Positions 3,768-56,544 of a stretch of DNA of 64,000 bases are shown here, piece after piece (positions within the stretch are counted from its first letter, which is position 1; each line of letters opens with the position of its first letter). The position numbers and the translations under genes were made by a program. Source of the stretch: Albidovulum litorale (GTDB taxonomy: Bacteria; Pseudomonadota; Alphaproteobacteria; Rhodobacterales; Rhodobacteraceae); assembly GCF_025751495.1 (NCBI RefSeq), contig NZ_JAOWKZ010000003.1:806001-870000 (forward strand), written 5' to 3'. The notes under the pieces are model-generated. The model was not told the DNA's origin and did no database searches. It saw nothing but the letters and a program-made list of their open reading frames with translations.

Positions 3768-4230
3768 ACACCATCGCCAGACCATTCATGCAATAGCGCT
3801 TTCCGGTCGGCTTCGCCCCGTCATTGAACACATGGCCCAGATGCCCGCCACAGCGACGGCAGTGAACCTCGGTCCGCTTGCCGAGGATGCCCCAGTCGGG
3901 CTTGGTGCCAACTGCATCCGGTAAAGGCTCCCAGAAACTCGGCCAGCCGGTGCCGCTGTCATACTTGGCCTTGGAGGAGTAAAGCGGCAGGTCACAGCCG
4001 GCGCAGTGATAGGTGCCCGCACGCTGTTCCTTGTCCAGAGGGCTCGAGAACGCGCGCTCGGTCCCCTCTTCCCGCAGGACCCAGTATTGCGCCTTGGTCA
4101 GGATCTTGCGCCATTCCGCGTCGGTCTTCGACACCTCGAAGCTTTCGGCTGCGGTCATCCGCTTCGCCCCCGCCATCACGGCGAGCGCCCCAAAGCTCAA
4201 AGCCAGCATGGCCCTGCGTGTCACCATCAT
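3754..4230 (-). CDS. msrB: Peptide-methionine (R)-S-oxide reductase with Tat-type signal
   Basis: This encodes 158 aa. Zinc ligands appear as CAGC (76-79) and CRRC (124-127), with the catalytic cysteine in RYCMNG at 147. MsrB reduces the R-epimer of methionine sulfoxide using thioredoxin-type donors. The N-terminus (VTRRAMLALSFGALAVMAGA) has a twin-arginine followed by a hydrophobic stretch, suggesting Tat export or membrane anchoring and hence periplasmic protein repair. Two adjacent ATGs (4230, 4227) follow a GGAG element. It converges on the LysR gene. Confidence 0.93.
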   Translation of the reverse strand: MMVTRRAMLALSFGALAVMAGAKRMTAAESFEVSKTDAEWRKILTKAQYWVLREEGTERAFSSPLDKEQRAGTYHCAGCDLPLYSSKAKYDSGTGWPSFWEPLPDAVGTKPDWGILGKRTEVHCRRCGGHLGHVFNDGAKPTGKRYCMNGLAMVFKPA

Positions 4231-4464
4231 TCCACTCCATCTCTCATCGCGGGCATGAACGACCTGACTATGCCCTGAACGAAGGCCGTACTGCGGTAAA
4301 AGATAGCCCCGACCGGATAGCAATCGCGTGATCACGTCCCCCGCTGGCCCTAAATAATGTCGGAAACTGGCCGCGCGACTTCGCCCCCTACCCTTGCACC
4401 CCCCGCCGTTATGCTCCATCAAAGCGCGGTGGCGCCCGGGGCCCGTCCGGGGCGCGTTTTGGAC

Positions 4465-5451
4465 ATGGGCAGGACGATGCTGGATACGACCGCGAAACCC
4501 ACCGAGGAAATCTCCGTCCGCGAGGTTTTCGGGATCGACACCGAGATGAAGGTCAAGGGCTTCGCCGACCGTTCCGACCGCGTGCCGGAGATCGACCCGA
4601 CCTACAAGTTCGACCCGGACACCACCTTGGCCATCCTCGCTGGCTTTGCCTATAACCGCCGGGTGATGATCCAGGGCTATCACGGCACCGGCAAATCGAC
4701 CCATATCGAACAGGTCGCCGCGCATCTGAACTGGCCCTGTGTGCGCGTCAACCTCGACAGCCATATCAGCCGGATCGACCTGATCGGCAAGGACGCGATC
4801 AAGCTGCGCGACGGCAAGCAGGTGACCGAGTTCCACGAGGGCATCCTGCCCTGGGCGCTTCGCAACCCGGTCGCCATCGTCTTTGACGAATACGATGCGG
4901 GGCGGGCCGACGTGATGTTCGTCATCCAGCGGGTGCTGGAGCATGACGGCAAGCTGACGCTGCTTGATCAGAACGAGATCATCACACCCAACCCGTCGTT
5001 CCGCCTTTTCGCCACCGCGAACACCGTGGGTCTGGGCGATACGACCGGCCTTTACCACGGTGTCCAGCAGATCAACCAGGCGCAGATGGACCGCTGGTCG
5101 CTTGTGGCCACGCTGAACTACCTCAGCCACGATGCCGAGGCAGCGATCGTTCTGGCTAAGAACCCGCATTACAACACCGAAAAGGGCCGCAAGCAGATCG
5201 GTCAGATGGTGACGGTCGCCGACATGACCCGCACCGCCTTCATGAACGGCGATCTTTCGACCGTCATGTCGCCCCGGACCGTGATCAACTGGGCCCAGAA
5301 CGCCGAGATCTTCCGCAATCTCGGCTATGCGTTCCGGCTGACCTTCCTCAACAAATGCGACGAGCTGGAGCGGCAGACGGTCGCCGAGTTCTACCAGCGC
5401 TGCTTTGACGAGGAACTGCCGGAGAGCGCTGCGAGCCAGAGCATCCGGTGA
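4465..5451 (+). CDS. cobS: Aerobic cobaltochelatase subunit CobS
   Basis: This is an AAA+ ATPase of the MoxR/CobS type. Walker [10 protein letters not shown] lies at about residues 71-79 and Walker [11 protein letters not shown] near 139. With CobT it drives CobN to insert Co2+ into hydrogenobyrinic acid a,c-diamide in aerobic B12 synthesis. The highly conserved N-terminus ([21 protein letters not shown] split by family variation) begins just after the chosen start. ATGs at 4465 and 4477 are both possible, and an ATG at 4357 would add 36 atypical residues. cobT follows after an 85-bp hairpin-bearing gap. cobN is not in the window. Confidence 0.95.
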
Positions 5452-5461
5452 TGAAACGCGC

Positions 5462-5510
5462 GCAAATTCCTTTGATAGGAATTTGCCAAAAGTCTTTGAA
5501 AGACTTTTGG
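5462..5510 (+). repeat. Paired perfect hairpins between cobS and cobT
   Basis: Two back-to-back palindromes share one base. The first has arms GCAAATTCCT and AGGAATTTGC with a 5-nt loop (5462-5486). The second has arms CCAAAAGTCTT and AAGACTTTTGG with a 3-nt loop (5486-5510). Both are AT-rich in a GC-rich context and have no T-tract, so a simple intrinsic terminator is unlikely. They may be a REP-like element or an mRNA processing/stability element setting the CobS:CobT ratio. Confidence 0.75.
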
Positions 5511-5536
5511 TCAGCGCAGACTGCTAGGTGCGGCAC

Positions 5537-7405
5537 ATGACCCAACGCTCCGACAACCCCGCCGATCCGTTCAAGAAGGCGCTCGCCGAGGCCACCAAGA
5601 CCATGGCCGACGATCCGGACCTGACGGTCTCCTACTCCGTCGATCCGCCGGGCATGGCGGGCGAGAATATGCGCCTGCCGCAGGTCTCGCGCCGGATGAC
5701 GCGGGATGAGGTGCTGATCGCGCGCGGCACGGCCGATGCCTTCGCGCTCCGCCACCGCTATCACAACCCCAAGACCGCCGCGAAATACCTGCCGCAGGGC
5801 CAGATGGCGCGCGACCTTTATGAGGCGATGGAAACCGCACGCTGCGAAGCCGTGGGCGCCCGCGACATGCCGGGCACCTTGGGCAATATCGACGCCAAGA
5901 TCGGGGCCGAGGCCGCCAAGCGCGGTTACGACCAGATCCGCGCCGCGCAGGACGCGCCGCTCACACAGGCCGCGGGGTACCTCGTCCGCCACCTTGCCAC
6001 GGGCCGCGACATGCCCGGCGGGGCGCAGAACGTGATGGAGCTCTGGCGGCCCTTCATCGAGGAACAGGCCGGCGGCACGCTCGACCATGTGGGCGACGTT
6101 CTGGCCGATCAGGCCGCCTTCGCCCGCCTTGCCCGGCAGGTGATCAAGGATCTCGGCTACGGCGACCAGCTGGGCGACGATCCGGATCTGGAGGACGAAG
6201 CAGAGGGCGACGAGGCGCAGGAGGAAGAGCAGGAGACGCCGGAAAGCGAAGAGGGCGACGATCAGTCCGAGGAATCGGAGGCAAGCCCCGAGCAGAGCCA
6301 GGAAGATCAGGACGACCAGTCCCAGGCCGAAGTCTCGATGGACGAGATGGCCGAGATGGAGGATGGCGACGAGGCCGAGATGCCCGAGGGCGAGGCACCG
6401 CTGGAGCCGCCGCCCCCTGCCCCCTATTCGGACGCCGACCCGAACTATGCCGTCTATACCACAGATTTCGATGAGGAAATCAAAGCCGAGGAGCTGGCCG
6501 AACCCGCCGAGCTGGAGCGCCTTCGCGCCTATCTCGATCAGCAACTCGAACCCTTGAAAGGCGCCGTGTCGCGGCTGGCCAACAAGCTTCAGCGCCGCCT
6601 GCAGGCACAGCAGAACCGGTCGTGGGAGTTCGATCTTGAGGAAGGTATACTCGATGCGGGCCGTCTGGCACGCGTCGTCGCCAACCCGACGACCCCCCTC
6701 AGCTTCAAGGTCGAGAAGGACACCGAGTTCCGCGACACCTGTGTGACGCTGCTTCTGGACAATTCCGGGTCCATGCGCGGCCGCCCGATCTCGATCGCCG
6801 CGATCTGCGCCGATGTTCTGGCCCGTACCCTCGAACGCTGTCAGGTCAAGGTGGAGATCCTCGGCTTCACCACCCGCGCCTGGAAGGGCGGTCAGGCACG
6901 TGAACGCTGGCTGGCGGCGGGGCGCGAACAGCAGCCCGGGCGGCTGAACGACCTGCGCCACATCATCTACAAGGGCGCCGATGCACCATGGCGCCGCGCC
7001 CGGCCCAATCTGGGGCTGATGATGAAGGAGGGGCTCCTGAAAGAGAACATCGACGGCGAGGCGTTGGAATGGGCGCATCGGCGGATGATCGGTCGGCCCG
7101 AACAGCGAAAGATCCTGATGGTGATTTCGGATGGCGCACCGGTCGACGACTCAACTCTGTCCGTCAACCCCGCGAATTATCTCGAAAAACATCTCCGCGA
7201 CGTAATCGCGATGGTGGAACGGCGCAAGGCGGTGGAACTGATCGCCATCGGCATCGGCCATGACGTGACACGCTATTACCAGCGCGCAGTCACGATCACC
7301 GATGTGGAGCAGCTGGCCGGTGCGATGACGGAACAGCTTGCCAGCCTGTTCGACAGCGATCCGCGGGCTCGCGCCCGGGTCATGGGGATGCGCAAGGCCG
7401 GGTGA
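5537..7405 (+). CDS. cobT: Aerobic cobaltochelatase subunit CobT
   Basis: This encodes about 622 aa. The N-terminal domain (residues 1-215) is followed by a very acidic Glu/Asp/Gln-rich linker (about 215-300) and a C-terminal von Willebrand A domain with MIDAS motif DNSGSMRG starting near residue 408. CobT forms the second ring of the CobST chaperone-like complex and couples ATP hydrolysis to CobN. The ATG at 5537 is preferred over a GTG nine bases upstream. An AGG lies 8 nt before it. The order and spacing with cobS support one transcript, subject to the intervening hairpins. Confidence 0.95.
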
Positions 7406-51231: not shown

Positions 51232-51894
51232 ATGTGTGGCCGCTTCATCCTTAGCGACGCCTCTTGGGCAGAGTATCACGACGCGCTGCGGCTCATCCGC
51301 GGCGCAAGCGGTCATGTCAGTTACAACATCAAGCCGACTCAGACGGTCAGCCTTGCCCGCATCGTCGATGGCAGACTGACGGCGGACCAAGCGCGCTGGT
51401 GGTTCGTGCCCGCGTGGTTCGATGGAGAGATACGCAACTGGAAGGCCACCACCTTCAATGCCAGGATCGAAACGGCCGCAAGCAAACCGGTCTTCCGACG
51501 GGCTTGGAAAAGCGGCCGCTGCATCCTGCCCGCCTCGGGTTACTACGAATGGACCGGAGACAAATCCGCGCGGCGACCGTGGTTCATAGGGCTGACACAG
51601 AATGCGCCGGTCTTCTTTTTCGCCGGTCTCTGCGAGGCGCGGGCAGATAGCGCGCTGACCTGCACGATCCTGACGCGCGAGGCGGCGCCTGAACTCAGCC
51701 ATCTGCATCCGAGAATGCCCGTAGTGCTGACGGGCGAAGAACTGCTGCCATGGCTGTCGGGAGAAACCGGCGATGCGGCCGCGCGCGATCTGGGACGGGG
51801 TTGGGCCGGACGGTTCATCACCCGACCGGTGCGCCCCTTTGGACGTGACGATGACGGGCCGGAATTGATCGAACAGGACGGATTTGATCTCTGA
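51232..51894 (+). CDS. SRAP (HMCES/YedK) family abasic-site protein
   Basis: This encodes 220 aa. All catalytic residues are present: Cys2 exposed after Met removal (MCGRF), Asn76 in FNARIET, Glu106 in GYYEWTG and His159 in HLHPRMP. The protein crosslinks to abasic sites in single-stranded DNA through Cys2, protecting them during the SOS response. It is divergent from the acyl-CoA synthetase. I see no LexA box that I can defend. A long hairpin lies 38 bp downstream. Confidence 0.94.
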   Translation: MCGRFILSDASWAEYHDALRLIRGASGHVSYNIKPTQTVSLARIVDGRLTADQARWWFVPAWFDGEIRNWKATTFNARIETAASKPVFRRAWKSGRCILPASGYYEWTGDKSARRPWFIGLTQNAPVFFFAGLCEARADSALTCTILTREAAPELSHLHPRMPVVLTGEELLPWLSGETGDAAARDLGRGWAGRFITRPVRPFGRDDDGPELIEQDGFDL

Positions 51895-52185: not shown

Positions 52186-53424
52186 TTAACAACCGCCGCC
52201 ACGGACGAGTCCCCAGCCAAATTCGCTGTCGCGGCCGGGGCGGCCAAGGTCTTCGGCACGATCCGAAAGCCGGTTCAGAATTTCATCCTGTTTTAGAGGG
52301 TTCCGGGCCAATTCTCGGGCAATCAGACCACTCACCACGGCGGCGGCGTATGACGTGCCGGAGCGGTAAGTCGCCTCACCGGGGCCGGGAATGAGTATGT
52401 CGACTCCGGGAGCGGCCAAGTCGATCTCGCTTCCGATATTCGCCGAACGGTACCGGCGCTTGCGCGCATCAACGGCTGTTACCGAGATTACATTCGGGTC
52501 GGCTGCCGGAAACGCCACTTCGTCGCGCCCGTCATTTCCCGCCGCGGCGACAAGGATGGCGCCACGGGCGGCCGCGGCCTGCATTGCACGGGCCAGAACA
52601 CGGTTGCGCGGACCCGCAAGCGAAAGATTGATCAGTTCCACCCGTTCCGAGACGAGCCAGCCGAGTGCCGCGACCATGGTATCCAGGCGCATCTCGTCCT
52701 TGCTGCCGTTTCGCGCAAAGGCTTCGGCCATGTAAAGCCGGGCGCCCGGTGCAATACCCGGCAGTCCGCCCCTATGGCTGGCTGCGGCGATCACTTTGGC
52801 GAGGCTGGTTGCGTGGTCGCGATCGCCGGGCTCATCGTCCGCGTCGAGGACAGACCTGGCTACAACCGATACGTTGGAAGCGCGAAGACCGGCAAGATCC
52901 ACCGGCCCGTCGATCACCCCAATACGGACCGGGTGCTGCAAAGGACATGCCGCGGTTTCGGGTAATCCGATCATCGTCCGCACATAGCTTCGGCCAGTCC
53001 CGGCAGGCTGATAGATGGCATTTCGGTCGACCGTGACGCCGATCCCTTTGCGCTGAAGGCGCGCGCGTAGGATCGGAAGGGTCATCAGCGCGCCGATATC
53101 AGCCGCGCTTATCGCAAGGCCAAGGCCCGGAAGGTCTTGCTTTTGCAGGATCTGCCCGCCGAATCCGGCAATTTCTGCCTCTGCGCGTGCCACCTCGCGC
53201 GCGGCACCGAGAATTAGAACTTCCGGACTACCCAGCGGACGTGTTCTGCCTTTATCGTCTTTCTTAGTCCTTCCGGCCCTCGCGCGAGGCTTGGGGTCGG
53301 GTGGATCTTCAGGTTCTGCCTGAGCGAGAATTATGCGGCCGCCACCGTAGAACGGGTCCGCGATAGCCTGCCCCACCCCGGCAACCGCAACGAGAACCGC
53401 TGCGAACAGTACAGGCACCATCAT
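52186..53424 (-). CDS. S8 family serine protease (subtilase) of an ECF sigma operon
   Basis: This encodes 412 aa. A signal peptide (1-22) is followed by a basic Pro-rich linker, a propeptide-like segment (about 66-135) and the catalytic domain. The triad is visible as Asp172 (IGVIDGP), His204 (RDHATSLAK) and Ser358 (RSGTSYAA), with oxyanion Asn297 (AAGNDG). The histidine lacks the usual HGT context (HAT). It should be a periplasmic or secreted protease. Its ATG overlaps the anti-sigma stop (ATGA), placing it third in the operon. Confidence 0.9.
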   Translation of the reverse strand: MMVPVLFAAVLVAVAGVGQAIADPFYGGGRIILAQAEPEDPPDPKPRARAGRTKKDDKGRTRPLGSPEVLILGAAREVARAEAEIAGFGGQILQKQDLPGLGLAISAADIGALMTLPILRARLQRKGIGVTVDRNAIYQPAGTGRSYVRTMIGLPETAACPLQHPVRIGVIDGPVDLAGLRASNVSVVARSVLDADDEPGDRDHATSLAKVIAAASHRGGLPGIAPGARLYMAEAFARNGSKDEMRLDTMVAALGWLVSERVELINLSLAGPRNRVLARAMQAAAARGAILVAAAGNDGRDEVAFPAADPNVISVTAVDARKRRYRSANIGSEIDLAAPGVDILIPGPGEATYRSGTSYAAAVVSGLIARELARNPLKQDEILNRLSDRAEDLGRPGRDSEFGWGLVRGGGC

Positions 53425-53990
53425 TCGGCGGCACCCGCGCTTTCGACAAGCTCAGCAGCTTCTTCGAGTGCGGCGATGACATCCGCCGCTGACGTCACCT
53501 CAGGAACGAGGACACGGTATAGCCCGAGCGCCGATGGGCCATCGACAATCGTCAGATCATGGACCAGCAAAAGATCGGAAATCGCGCCCTGCGGCGCATC
53601 CGGCCGGAAAGCCACGAAAAGTTCCCCCTGCGCGGCGGCGATACCCGCCTGTTCATAGACCGGCACACGATCCGCATGAGAAAGATAGAGGGTCGCGCCT
53701 GCCACGACACTCACCGCCGCGACGGAAGCCGCGAGCAACCTGAAGGGGCGCCGCTTCGGCTCAACAGCCTGCATCAGCCGCGCCAGCCCCAAATCGCCCG
53801 GCGAGTAATTCATTTCCTCGGCTTTGATCGTAGCGCGGATATGCCGGAGGAGATCGACTTGCGCACGCAGGCCGACATCTGCGGCCAGAAGCGCCTCCAC
53901 CTCGGCCCGCTCCTCTGATGACAGGGTTTCGTTCACATAGAACGGCAATAACTCAGCCACCCGTCTTTCGCGGTCATTCCGATCAATCAT
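53421..53990 (-). CDS. Transmembrane anti-sigma factor with propeptide-like C-terminal domain
   Basis: This encodes 189 aa. The cytoplasmic N-terminus (1-60, RRVAELLPFYVNETLSSEE) looks like an anti-sigma helical domain but lacks the zinc HxxxCxxC motif. One membrane helix spans about 84-104. The periplasmic part (about 110-182) contains GELFVAFRPDAPQGAISDLL and IVDGPSALGLYRVLVPE, resembling the beta-alpha-beta fold of subtilase propeptides/I9 inhibitors. It overlaps sigma upstream (TAATG) and the subtilase downstream (ATGA). Confidence 0.8.
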   Translation of the reverse strand: MIDRNDRERRVAELLPFYVNETLSSEERAEVEALLAADVGLRAQVDLLRHIRATIKAEEMNYSPGDLGLARLMQAVEPKRRPFRLLAASVAAVSVVAGATLYLSHADRVPVYEQAGIAAAQGELFVAFRPDAPQGAISDLLLVHDLTIVDGPSALGLYRVLVPEVTSAADVIAALEEAAELVESAGAAE

Positions 53991-54544
53991 TACTTTTTTC
54001 CCAACGTCAGACGGGCCGAGAGGCACCGCATCAAAAGCTGCTTGGCGTGGAAGACGCGGCTTTTCACCGTTCCTTCAGGCACGCCCTTAACCAGAGCGAT
54101 GTCGCCATAGCTCATGTCCTCGTAGAACGTGAGTTCAACCGCCAGCCGGTGTTCGGGCTTCAACCCCTCAAGACAGCGGCGCACCGCTTCCGCGTTTTCG
54201 GCCGCGATCAACGCGGCTGCGGCATCGGGGCTGTCATCCACCTGATCAGGCAGCTCGTCCTGATAGCTCACCCGTCCTTCCCGTCTGAATACATCCATAA
54301 CCTTCCGGTATGCGATCGCGAAGACCCATGTCCGGACGCTCGATTTCCTTTGGAATGCGCCGGCACTGCGCCAGACTTCCAGAAACACTTCATGGACTAT
54401 GTCGGCAGACCGGAACGGATCGTTCAATTTTATCTGGACGAAGCGGAACAGCGGGCGTTCCAGCGCCCTGTATAGCTCTTCAAACGCGAGTCGATCCCTT
54501 CGTGCGATCGCCTCGACAAGGGTATCAAGCTTCTGGTCGACCAT
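53990..54544 (-). CDS. ECF-type RNA polymerase sigma factor
   Basis: This encodes 184 aa. Region 2 (FEELYRALERPLFRF, DIVHEVFLEVWRS, RTWVFAIAYRKVMD) and region 4 (LKPEHRLAVELTFYEDMSYGDIA in part, VPEGTVKSRVFHAKQLL) are complete. There is no region 3 or C-terminal extension. It is the first gene of the sigma/anti-sigma/subtilase operon, whose products are presumably released from repression by an envelope signal. The 96-bp upstream gap holds no recognisable ECF promoter, so autoregulation is unproven. Confidence 0.92.
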   Translation of the reverse strand: MVDQKLDTLVEAIARRDRLAFEELYRALERPLFRFVQIKLNDPFRSADIVHEVFLEVWRSAGAFQRKSSVRTWVFAIAYRKVMDVFRREGRVSYQDELPDQVDDSPDAAAALIAAENAEAVRRCLEGLKPEHRLAVELTFYEDMSYGDIALVKGVPEGTVKSRVFHAKQLLMRCLSARLTLGKK

Positions 54545-54640: not shown

Positions 54641-56431
54641 TCACTCGGCCGCCAGGCCTTCGGTGAACTGAAGCCGCGCAAGCCGCGCATAAAGGCCACC
54701 TTCGGCGACCAAAGCATCGTGGGTGCCGGTGGCGACGATCCGGCCCTGGTCGAAGACGACGATCCGGTCGGCCTTCTTCACCGTTGCCAGCCGGTGGGCG
54801 ACAATAAGCGTCGTGCGGTCTTTCGACACCGCTTCGACCGCCTTCTGCACCGCCCGTTCGCTCTCCGCATCAAGGGCCGAGGTCGCCTCGTCGAGAAGCA
54901 GCACGGCCGCGTCGCGCAGAATCGCGCGGGCGATGGCGATCCGTTGTTTCTGCCCGCCCGACAGCATCACGCCGCGTTCGCCGACATAGGTGTCATAACC
55001 CTCTGGCAGAGCGGTCAGGAAATCATGCGCGGCGGCGGTGCGGGCGGCAGCTTCGACTTCTTCATTCGTCGCGTCGGGGCGGCCAAAGCGGATGTTCTCT
55101 CGTGCGGTGGCGGCAAAGATTACCGGGTCCTGCGGGACAAGAGCGAGCGCCTTGCGGAACTCGGACCGCGCCATGTCGCTCAGCGCGACGCCATCGAGCG
55201 TAATGCGGCCTTTGTAAGGATCGTAGAAGCGCAGAAGAAGCTGGATGACCGTGGTCTTGCCTGCGCCGGAAGGACCGACGAGCGCCACCGTCTCACCCGG
55301 CTTCACATGAAGGTTCATCTCCTCCAGCGCCGATTGCTCGGGCCGGGCCGGATAGTGGAAGGTCACACTGTCGAAGACAATCTCCCCCCGTGACGGGCGG
55401 GGCAGCGCCACTGGCGCCGCGGGCTCGGTCACGCTGTCGGTGACGTTCAGAAGCTCCACCAGCCGCTCGGTCGCCCCCGCCGCGCGCTGCAACTCGCCCC
55501 AGATTTCCGACAGGGCGGCGACTGACCCCGCCGCCATGATCGCATAGATGACGAACTGCACCAGTTCGCCCGGGCTCATCGCGCCCGCCCGCACATCGCG
55601 CGCGCCAATCCAGAGGACGCCGACGACCCCGGCGAAAACGAGGAAGATCACCGCCACCGTCATCGCCGCACGGGTACGGATACGGGCCTTGGCCGATATG
55701 AACGCCTCTTCGGTCACACGTGCGAATTCGGCCCGGCTTTCACGCTCATGGGTGAAGGCCTGCACGGTCTGGACGGCACCCAGGGCTTCCGATGCTGAAC
55801 CGGAGGACGCCGCGATCCAGTCCTGATTTTCGCGGGAAAGTCGGCGCAGGCGGCGGCCTTGCGTGATGATCGGCACCAGCACCAGCGGCACGATCAGCAG
55901 AACCAGCCCCGTCAGCTTGGCCGATGTGAACAGCATCAGCACGATGCCCCCAAGCAGGATCAACAGATTACGAAGCGCGACCGAAACCGAGGAGCCGATC
56001 ACTGATAGGATCAGCGTCGTGTCCGTCGTGATGCGGCTGACGACCTCGCCCGTCATGATCTTTTCGTAGAAAGCCGGGCTCATCCCGATGACCCGGTCGA
56101 AGACCGCCTTGCGGATATCCGCGACCACGCGTTCGCCCAGCCGCGTGACGAGGTAGTACCTTGCACCGGTTCCAAGCGCGAGCAGACCGGCAATGACCAT
56201 GGCGCCCGCGAAATAGCTGTCGAGCAGTTCTGCACCCTCGCCGAACCCGTCGATCACGCGGCGCACGGCGACCGGCAGGAGAAGCGAGATCGAAGCAGTC
56301 AGCACCAGCGCAACACCCGCCCCGGCTACAAGGCCGCCATAGGGCCGAAGAAATGGCAACAGCCCCTTCAGCGCACCGACACGTTTCGATGACACGCGAT
56401 CCTCTCCCTGACTATCCGTTCGCCGTGCCAT
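54641..56431 (-). CDS. ABC exporter, fused permease-ATPase
   Basis: This encodes 596 aa. Six membrane helices (about residues 25-310) precede one nucleotide-binding domain with Walker A GPSGAGKTT, signature MLSGGQKQRIAIARA, Walker B AVLLLDEATSALD and the H-loop VAHRLATV. The half-transporter should homodimerise, as in MsbA/LmrA-type lipid or drug exporters. The substrate is unknown. The ATG at 56431 follows GGAGGGG; an extension to 56521 would add Arg/Pro-rich sequence. Confidence 0.93.
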   Translation of the reverse strand: MARRTDSQGEDRVSSKRVGALKGLLPFLRPYGGLVAGAGVALVLTASISLLLPVAVRRVIDGFGEGAELLDSYFAGAMVIAGLLALGTGARYYLVTRLGERVVADIRKAVFDRVIGMSPAFYEKIMTGEVVSRITTDTTLILSVIGSSVSVALRNLLILLGGIVLMLFTSAKLTGLVLLIVPLVLVPIITQGRRLRRLSRENQDWIAASSGSASEALGAVQTVQAFTHERESRAEFARVTEEAFISAKARIRTRAAMTVAVIFLVFAGVVGVLWIGARDVRAGAMSPGELVQFVIYAIMAAGSVAALSEIWGELQRAAGATERLVELLNVTDSVTEPAAPVALPRPSRGEIVFDSVTFHYPARPEQSALEEMNLHVKPGETVALVGPSGAGKTTVIQLLLRFYDPYKGRITLDGVALSDMARSEFRKALALVPQDPVIFAATARENIRFGRPDATNEEVEAAARTAAAHDFLTALPEGYDTYVGERGVMLSGGQKQRIAIARAILRDAAVLLLDEATSALDAESERAVQKAVEAVSKDRTTLIVAHRLATVKKADRIVVFDQGRIVATGTHDALVAEGGLYARLARLQFTEGLAAE

Positions 56432-56544
56432 ATCCCCTCCGCTCCGACCCCACGGGTTTATGCGCCTGCGCGGCGCGGGGCAAGCGGCGGGGCGTCGCAG
56501 GGAGAGGGCCACCCCAGTCACGCAAGGAACGTGCGACTTTTCCT

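Follow-up and report, generated by a model that had tools for sequence, protein, structure and literature searches.

Why should the genes of an extracytoplasmic function (ECF) sigma factor, a one-helix anti-sigma factor and a protease of family S8 overlap one another, and what might the periplasmic part of such an anti-sigma factor sense? To our knowledge, the way in which ECF anti-sigma factors perceive their signal is known for few groups. The locus that raises the question lies in a 64,000-nucleotide stretch of the Albidovulum litorale genome (contig NZ_JAOWKZ010000003.1, positions 806,001 to 870,000; hereafter the window), whose minus strand carries the gene trio, overlaps included, as an earlier note made from the letters alone had read it. 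Of the span named in that note, 53421-54544, it holds true that the sigma and anti-sigma genes lie inside, while the subtilase gene lies just beyond it. Our analysis indicates that the C-terminal domain (CTD) of the anti-sigma factor very likely has an S8-propeptide-like fold and that the CTD and the subtilase are likely to be functional partners. We further propose that the anti-sigma factor is a docking site for the subtilase, whose state sets the release of the sigma factor, a mechanism to which, taken as a whole, we assign a probability of roughly 50%.

The sigma gene (53990-54544, minus strand) encodes 184 amino acids (aa) with matches above the cut-offs to PF08281 (E 7e-14), PF04542 (E 2.8e-11) and TIGR02937. 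The anti-sigma gene (53421-53990, minus strand) encodes 189 aa from an ATG at 53990; a GTG at 54026 would give an alternative product of 201 aa (53421-54026), and the ATG is the more likely start. The subtilase gene (52186-53424, minus strand) encodes 412 aa with a PF00082 match of 100.8 bits, above the cut-off. The sigma stop codon and the anti-sigma ATG have one base in common (TAATG), and the anti-sigma stop codon and the subtilase ATG overlap by four bases (ATGA). When the 4.05-Mb assembly was searched with profiles, the window subtilase was the sole match to PF00082, and there were 14 matches to sigma region 4.2, 12 of them above the cut-off. Because PF00082 has no second match in the assembly and because a single helix divides the domains of the anti-sigma factor, we regard the three-gene unit as more than a chance arrangement.

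We generated a predicted structure of the anti-sigma factor with AlphaFold2, using an alignment of 33 relatives. The model has N-terminal helices at residues 2-19, 25-37, 39-59 and 64-76, followed by a long helix at residues 84-105, which stands between the N-terminal helical domain and a compact CTD and which we read as a membrane helix. Pfam matches of the protein were all sub-threshold, among them zf-HC2 at the N-terminus (17.6 bits, under the curated cut-off of 22.2) and PF22148 at the C-terminus, and NCBIfam anti-sigma models matched it at E 7e-7 and 1e-5, both under their cut-offs. Between the presumed membrane helix and the CTD lies a periplasmic linker that we consider a candidate cleavage region (residues 106-120; 53631-53675, minus strand). 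Its predicted local distance difference test (pLDDT) values are low, with block means of 65 and 56 and residues 111-113 below 50, and it contains a near-invariant alanine, A115, which is kept in at least 90% of the 33 anti-sigma sequences.

The CTD itself comprises residues 121-189 and the stop codon (53421-53630, minus strand). The earlier note had seen an S8 propeptide or I9 inhibitor pattern in the stretches FVAFRPDAP and IVDGPSALGLYRVLVP; both are found in the anti-sigma protein, and structure prediction followed by structure search yielded a fold of just this type and not an unrelated one. The model places strands at residues 122-128, 147-150, 157-162 and 182-187 and helices at 134-143 and 168-177, with pLDDT values of 93-98 by block, and the modelled topology, beta-alpha-beta-beta-alpha-beta over about 70 residues, is that of the S8 propeptide type. 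Of the first 26 rows of a Foldseek search against the PDB, 13 belong to this type: propeptides, pro-forms or prodomain complexes of subtilases, the I9 inhibitor POIA1, or the external chaperone of Aeromonas. By target-normalised template modelling (TM) score, the nearest of them was the propeptide of Tk-subtilisin (2z58_B, 0.73); the other propeptide-type matches included subtilisin (1scj_B and 3cnq_P), EpiP, POIA1 (1itp) and Aeromonas ORF2 (3wqb_B). Comparison with a viral structure library gave nothing decisive.

A relation to propeptides is also supported by sequence families. When 33 CTDs were scanned against Pfam at E<=1, 14 matched PF22148, the fervidolysin prodomain (best E 8.3e-5), which was the sole family matched by more than one CTD, seven other families being matched by one CTD each. 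The reverse search, with PF22148 over 120 genomes of the phylum, returned nine matches above the cut-off in eight genomes. Seven of the nine sit directly before subtilase catalytic domains, six of these recognised by a subtilase-profile match and one (L135) by eye, and one is a CTD from the present anti-sigma family (genome G330, L138/L099), which reaches 22.3 bits as a protein and so exceeds the Pfam cut-off. One of the seven, in genome G715, falls by its coordinates in the own prodomain of a subtilase belonging to the same system, and the G715 anti-sigma factor gave no Pfam match at E<=0.1; the trans and cis domains of the system both reach PF22148, but at different loci. The ninth match, a PF22148 domain of 22.4 bits, ends a stand-alone, secreted-looking protein (L136, 1111-1704, plus strand) whose gene comes immediately after one for an S8 protease that bears a P-domain, and this protein looks like another trans propeptide. 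Profile comparison with hhalign gave a probability of 84% for the CTD profile against nine propeptide-type stretches linked to S8, and of 90% for the cis propeptides of the partner subtilases against the same set, the set being small and hand-picked, with two members that are cis propeptides from this very system. No propeptide came up when PDB sequences were searched with the anti-sigma factor or the CTD profile, a result that we do not count against the relation because the genuine subtilase propeptide of L133 also finds none.

If the CTD resembles a propeptide, does the subtilase lack one? The N terminus of the window subtilase is signal-peptide-like by eye, and its triad (D172, H204 and S358) is kept without exception across 39 aligned subtilases, including four from a CTD-less arrangement; by its sequence, with this Asp/His/Ser triad and PF00082 above the cut-off, the protein belongs to peptidase family S8. 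In the AlphaFold2 model, a prodomain of its own at about residues 67-139 has the same topology as the CTD (pLDDT block means of 93-98 over residues 71-130) and is followed by a high-confidence catalytic domain, and the best Foldseek match of the whole is unprocessed pro-subtilisin E (3whi, E 5e-24, 371 columns). The propeptide-like region that the earlier note ascribed to the protease is borne out by this model. The protease thus already contains a propeptide, and the CTD of the anti-sigma factor is one more copy, in trans, encoded by a separate gene and not placed in the same chain before an S8 catalytic domain. The same finding bears on the possibility that the CTD is a trans folding chaperone of the subtilase, like Aeromonas ORF2, with the sigma link merely co-regulating chaperone and client. 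The Foldseek match to ORF2 (3wqb_B) and the overlap of the anti-sigma and subtilase genes fit such a role, but the window subtilase has a high-confidence propeptide of its own, whereas the Aeromonas protease is titled propeptide-deficient in an entry of the reference list of PMC5638518.

The linkage of CTD and subtilase was followed across genomes with a CTD profile in three draws. At E<=1e-3 the profile matched in 36 of 295 genomes drawn from the family and in 33 of 398 drawn from the phylum; for the class, at E<=0.01, it matched in 21 of 385. Some genomes appear in more than one draw, and every place was counted once. At E<=1e-4, the set contains 79 distinct CTD matches, 36 from the family (including the window), 16 from the class and 27 from the phylum. 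A subtilase is nearby in 36/36, 15/16 and 23/27 of these, respectively, or 74 of the 79, which confirms in many genomes the co-occurrence that the earlier note had proposed to survey; for six of the phylum matches (G719, G821, G733, G992, G810 and G848) the flank viewed was about 1.5 kb and contained part of the subtilase. The 74 are not independent events, because the CTD matches are related to each other. Places with both CTD and subtilase matches span 12 family labels of the class and five outside it, as well as Xenophilus (L032), found by a contig search, and 168 of the 295 family genomes have a PF00082 match. Matches weaker than 1e-4 were left out: two in the family, both unrelated long proteins; five in the class, four without a sigma or subtilase match and one in a 96-aa frame; and three in the phylum, two with a subtilase and one without. 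Four anti-sigma relatives matching outside the CTD (L033, L034, L066 and L068) had no subtilase in the available flanking DNA, and L033 tells little because its contig ends inside the anti-sigma frame.

Gene order was compared at 69 loci with CTD and subtilase matches in wider stretches, the window excluded. A sigma gene is present at 68 of them. The anti-sigma gene lies on the strand of the sigma gene at 56 loci and on the opposite strand at 12, one locus having no sigma match; anti-sigma and subtilase genes are on opposite strands at 11. An order with the subtilase upstream of the sigma gene is also seen (L183 and L191). As the three genes are kept together through inversions, we argue for a functional link over a frozen operon. 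A chaperone, in turn, sits poorly with the 11 loci at which the anti-sigma gene runs opposite to the subtilase, and we give that explanation little credence. A heuristic lipobox pattern, which is rough and makes some visibly false calls, was found in 11 of 12 subtilases at inverted-anti-sigma loci as compared with 11 of 56 at the others, and the 11 of 12 would accordingly stay in the envelope. Pairwise distances of CTDs and subtilases correlate (r 0.72; partial 0.29 given sigma; 0/500 permutations), a sign of co-evolution that we set aside as weak because the permutation ignores shared ancestry.

How might such a partnership work? In the mechanism that we propose, the anti-sigma factor would be a membrane anchor with two adaptors: its N-terminal domain would bind the ECF sigma factor and retain it in the cytoplasm, and its periplasmic propeptide-like CTD would dock onto the mature co-encoded subtilase. 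The input would be the state of the subtilase in the envelope, which could be free and active or else absent, capped by its propeptide or busy with substrate. Docking without a plugging tail would set an active protease beside the flexible anti-sigma linker, and a cut in that linker would constitute site-1 proteolysis, leading through later intramembrane proteolysis to loss of the anti-sigma factor and a freed sigma factor, which would re-express the circuit as feedback. The subtilase, in other words, would act on sigma release, probably by linker cleavage. That the recognition is a case of propeptide mimicry, in which the anti-sigma factor uses a trans relative of the maturation domain to measure mature, uncapped subtilase in the envelope, is a more tentative proposal, possible and yet somewhat doubtful.

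Whether a docked CTD would leave the active site open turns on its tail, which in subtilisin needs about 13 residues in the enzyme's own propeptide. The modelled chain of the window CTD stops about two residues past strand 4, and in the profile alignment the stretch that begins with strand 4 and runs to the chain end measures 11 residues or fewer in 48 of 70 proteins, 12 in one and at least 13 in 21, some of the 21 being poorly aligned. Given this short end, docking without active-site plugging is what we infer for the window clade, and the modelled window CTD would probably dock in this manner. The CTD might instead be a tethered inhibitor that caps active subtilase at the membrane, so that the anti-sigma factor would sense occupancy or degradation of the inhibitory site. 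Its fold is the same as that of POIA1 and the subtilisin propeptides, and the 21 longer tails could reach the active site; in the Aeromonas pair, moreover, ORF2 inhibits the serine protease, with C-terminal residues of ORF2 at the catalytic site of the complex, according to the part of the published account drawn on here (PMC5638518). Such an inhibitor is unlikely in our view, as the window chain ends so soon after strand 4 and as the 48 short proteins fall below the subtilisin length.

Besides these 21 longer tails, several findings weigh against docking and cleavage as we propose them. Foldseek ranks eEF1B-alpha, likewise of ferredoxin-like fold, first for the CTD, and none of its rows attains E 0.001, for which reasons the fold alone is not decisive; ferredoxin-like folds are common. 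The window CTD matches PF22148 at E 0.0046 with 17.8 bits, under the cut-off of 21, and a PF22148 search of the window's own genome did not recover it. The hhalign probability between the CTD profile and the cis propeptides of the partner subtilases is 1.7%, and a derivation of the CTD by copying of its partner's own propeptide is unsupported at this value. Homologues without a subtilase neighbour, which the earlier note had named as contrary evidence, do occur, though rarely, at five of the 79 matches. One of the five (L094, genome G625) is a second copy that lacks a sigma match too, and another (G1005) also has no sigma match. In G889 (L170), a Peptidase_C14 caspase gene (136 bits) lies directly downstream in the subtilase's stead. 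The remaining two, G956 (L172, with a weak sigma match) and G871 (L173, with a sigma match), have no subtilase match and a sulfate permease nearby. Finally, we hand-picked subtilases of similar size and match among the PF00082 matches listed and inspected 20 of their loci; three are CTD matches, one (L120) is cut by a contig end, five have more distant subtilases and no sigma match, and at the other 11 the subtilase adjoins an ECF/anti-sigma pair whose anti-sigma factor has no CTD match and a different periplasmic part. At these 11 loci (L115-L119 and L121-L126) the pair lies on the other strand, and the differing periplasmic part contains cysteines. In a midpoint-rooted tree, all 12 subtilases from L115-L126 group together (clade support 0.87), and the group sits within the CTD-linked subtilases, a position that suggests an exchange of sensor.

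Several of these findings also speak for a CTD that senses some other periplasmic ligand through its ferredoxin-like fold, with the subtilase a nearby regulon member only. Ferredoxin-like folds are versatile, the first Foldseek row is not a propeptide, five CTD matches stand without a subtilase nearby and some subtilases use another anti-sigma factor. Nevertheless, the specificity of the PF22148 matches and a linkage retained in 74 of 79 cases through rearranged orders exceed what a regulon link would need, and we consider this explanation decidedly improbable.

Promoters bear on docking and cleavage in both directions. In their favour, an ECF-like motif, TGAACC-N16-CGAC, stands ahead of anti-sigma genes that are transcribed separately in 12 of 12 cases when up to one mismatch is allowed, where base shuffles would give 0.08. 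Under the same rule it precedes 21 of 70 sigma genes (0.6 by shuffling), the copy at L174 lying slightly within the presumed gene start, and 3 of 11 subtilase genes (0.06 by shuffling); the counts are descriptive, because the pattern was derived from the same sequences. On the unfavourable side, the copy upstream of the window unit has three mismatches, and among 25 upstream regions around the window clade no shared motif stood clearly above shuffles. A promoter motif claim for the window or its clade was dropped.

Comparison with known systems places docking and cleavage by the subtilase among several partial parallels. I9 inhibitors such as POIA1 (1itp; complex 1v5i) likewise are stand-alone domains of the S8-propeptide fold; POIA1 is an inhibitor with no link to a membrane or a sigma factor, and the window CTD ends early. 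RseA/DegS-type and other proteolysis-controlled ECF systems share a membrane anti-sigma factor with a periplasmic part, an adjoining ECF sigma factor and a serine protease plausibly acting in the periplasm; they differ in that the candidate protease here is an S8 subtilase of the same unit and the periplasmic domain is propeptide-like. DegS is described as the site-1 protease in the section of PMC8103513 drawn on here. The Aeromonas sobria serine protease and ORF2 also pair a subtilase with a propeptide-like protein encoded beside it and working in trans, but ORF2, as far as the cited part of PMC5638518 goes, is a separate chaperone of a propeptide-deficient protease, whereas the domain studied here is part of an anti-sigma factor, whose partner protease comes with a propeptide of its own. 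RsgI9 of Clostridium thermocellum is an anti-sigma factor with a protease-related extracytoplasmic sequence, which in the portion of PMC12203970 used here is a self-cleaving protease-homologous domain; in our system the protease has a separate gene, and it is the propeptide-like part that stands on the anti-sigma factor. A subtilase is also conserved near the sigma factor in ECF54 contexts, together with carboxypeptidase and CHAT proteins; unlike the present unit, ECF54 is described in the relevant part of PMC8999054 without an anti-sigma factor, and proteolysis of the sigma factor itself is proposed there. Among the open-licence PubMed Central matches listed, no title or opening of an abstract mentions a subtilase-propeptide-like domain on an anti-sigma factor; the ECF classification (10.1093/nar/gkaa1229), which is outside them, may list the neighbourhood.

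In this unit the sensor domain is one whose biochemical meaning can be recognised, and its likely partner is encoded alongside it, so the sensing step is testable with two purified proteins. If the proposed mechanism is true, the subtilase-propeptide fold has been reused as a signalling domain, and a function is provided for a three-gene unit found under 12 family labels of the class and five outside it. If propeptide mimicry holds as well, an ECF pathway would have a protease for its direct ligand, not a small molecule or a misfolded porin, and the caspase-family gene at one locus would mean that such a sensor can switch to a partner from a different class of protease. At that locus (L170), the Peptidase_C14 gene (4165-4971, minus strand) encodes a signal-like N terminus and overlaps the CTD anti-sigma gene (4968-5606, minus strand) by at most four bases. 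The two loci with a sulfate permease gene, L172 and L173, carry pairs of weak CTD proteins beside it, possibly a different use of the domain.

A few minor observations concern the surroundings of the unit. At nine loci (L037, L042, L044, L048, L092, L093, L096, L097 and L098), a family of large proteins is encoded upstream of the sigma gene; those seen are 612-729 aa long, and the one scanned had no Pfam match. Another protein, which looks exported, is common to five loci, and the one copy scanned gave an Ig match below threshold. Both kinds of protein are possible substrates or regulon members. At L048 (G184) the anti-sigma gene is interrupted and reads as two open frames (4983-5330 and 5397-5708, plus strand), through either a genomic frameshift or an assembly error. 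In the window, the neighbours of the three-gene unit include a SRAP (SOS response associated peptidase) gene at 51232-51894 on the plus strand and an ABC transporter gene at 54641-56521 on the minus strand.

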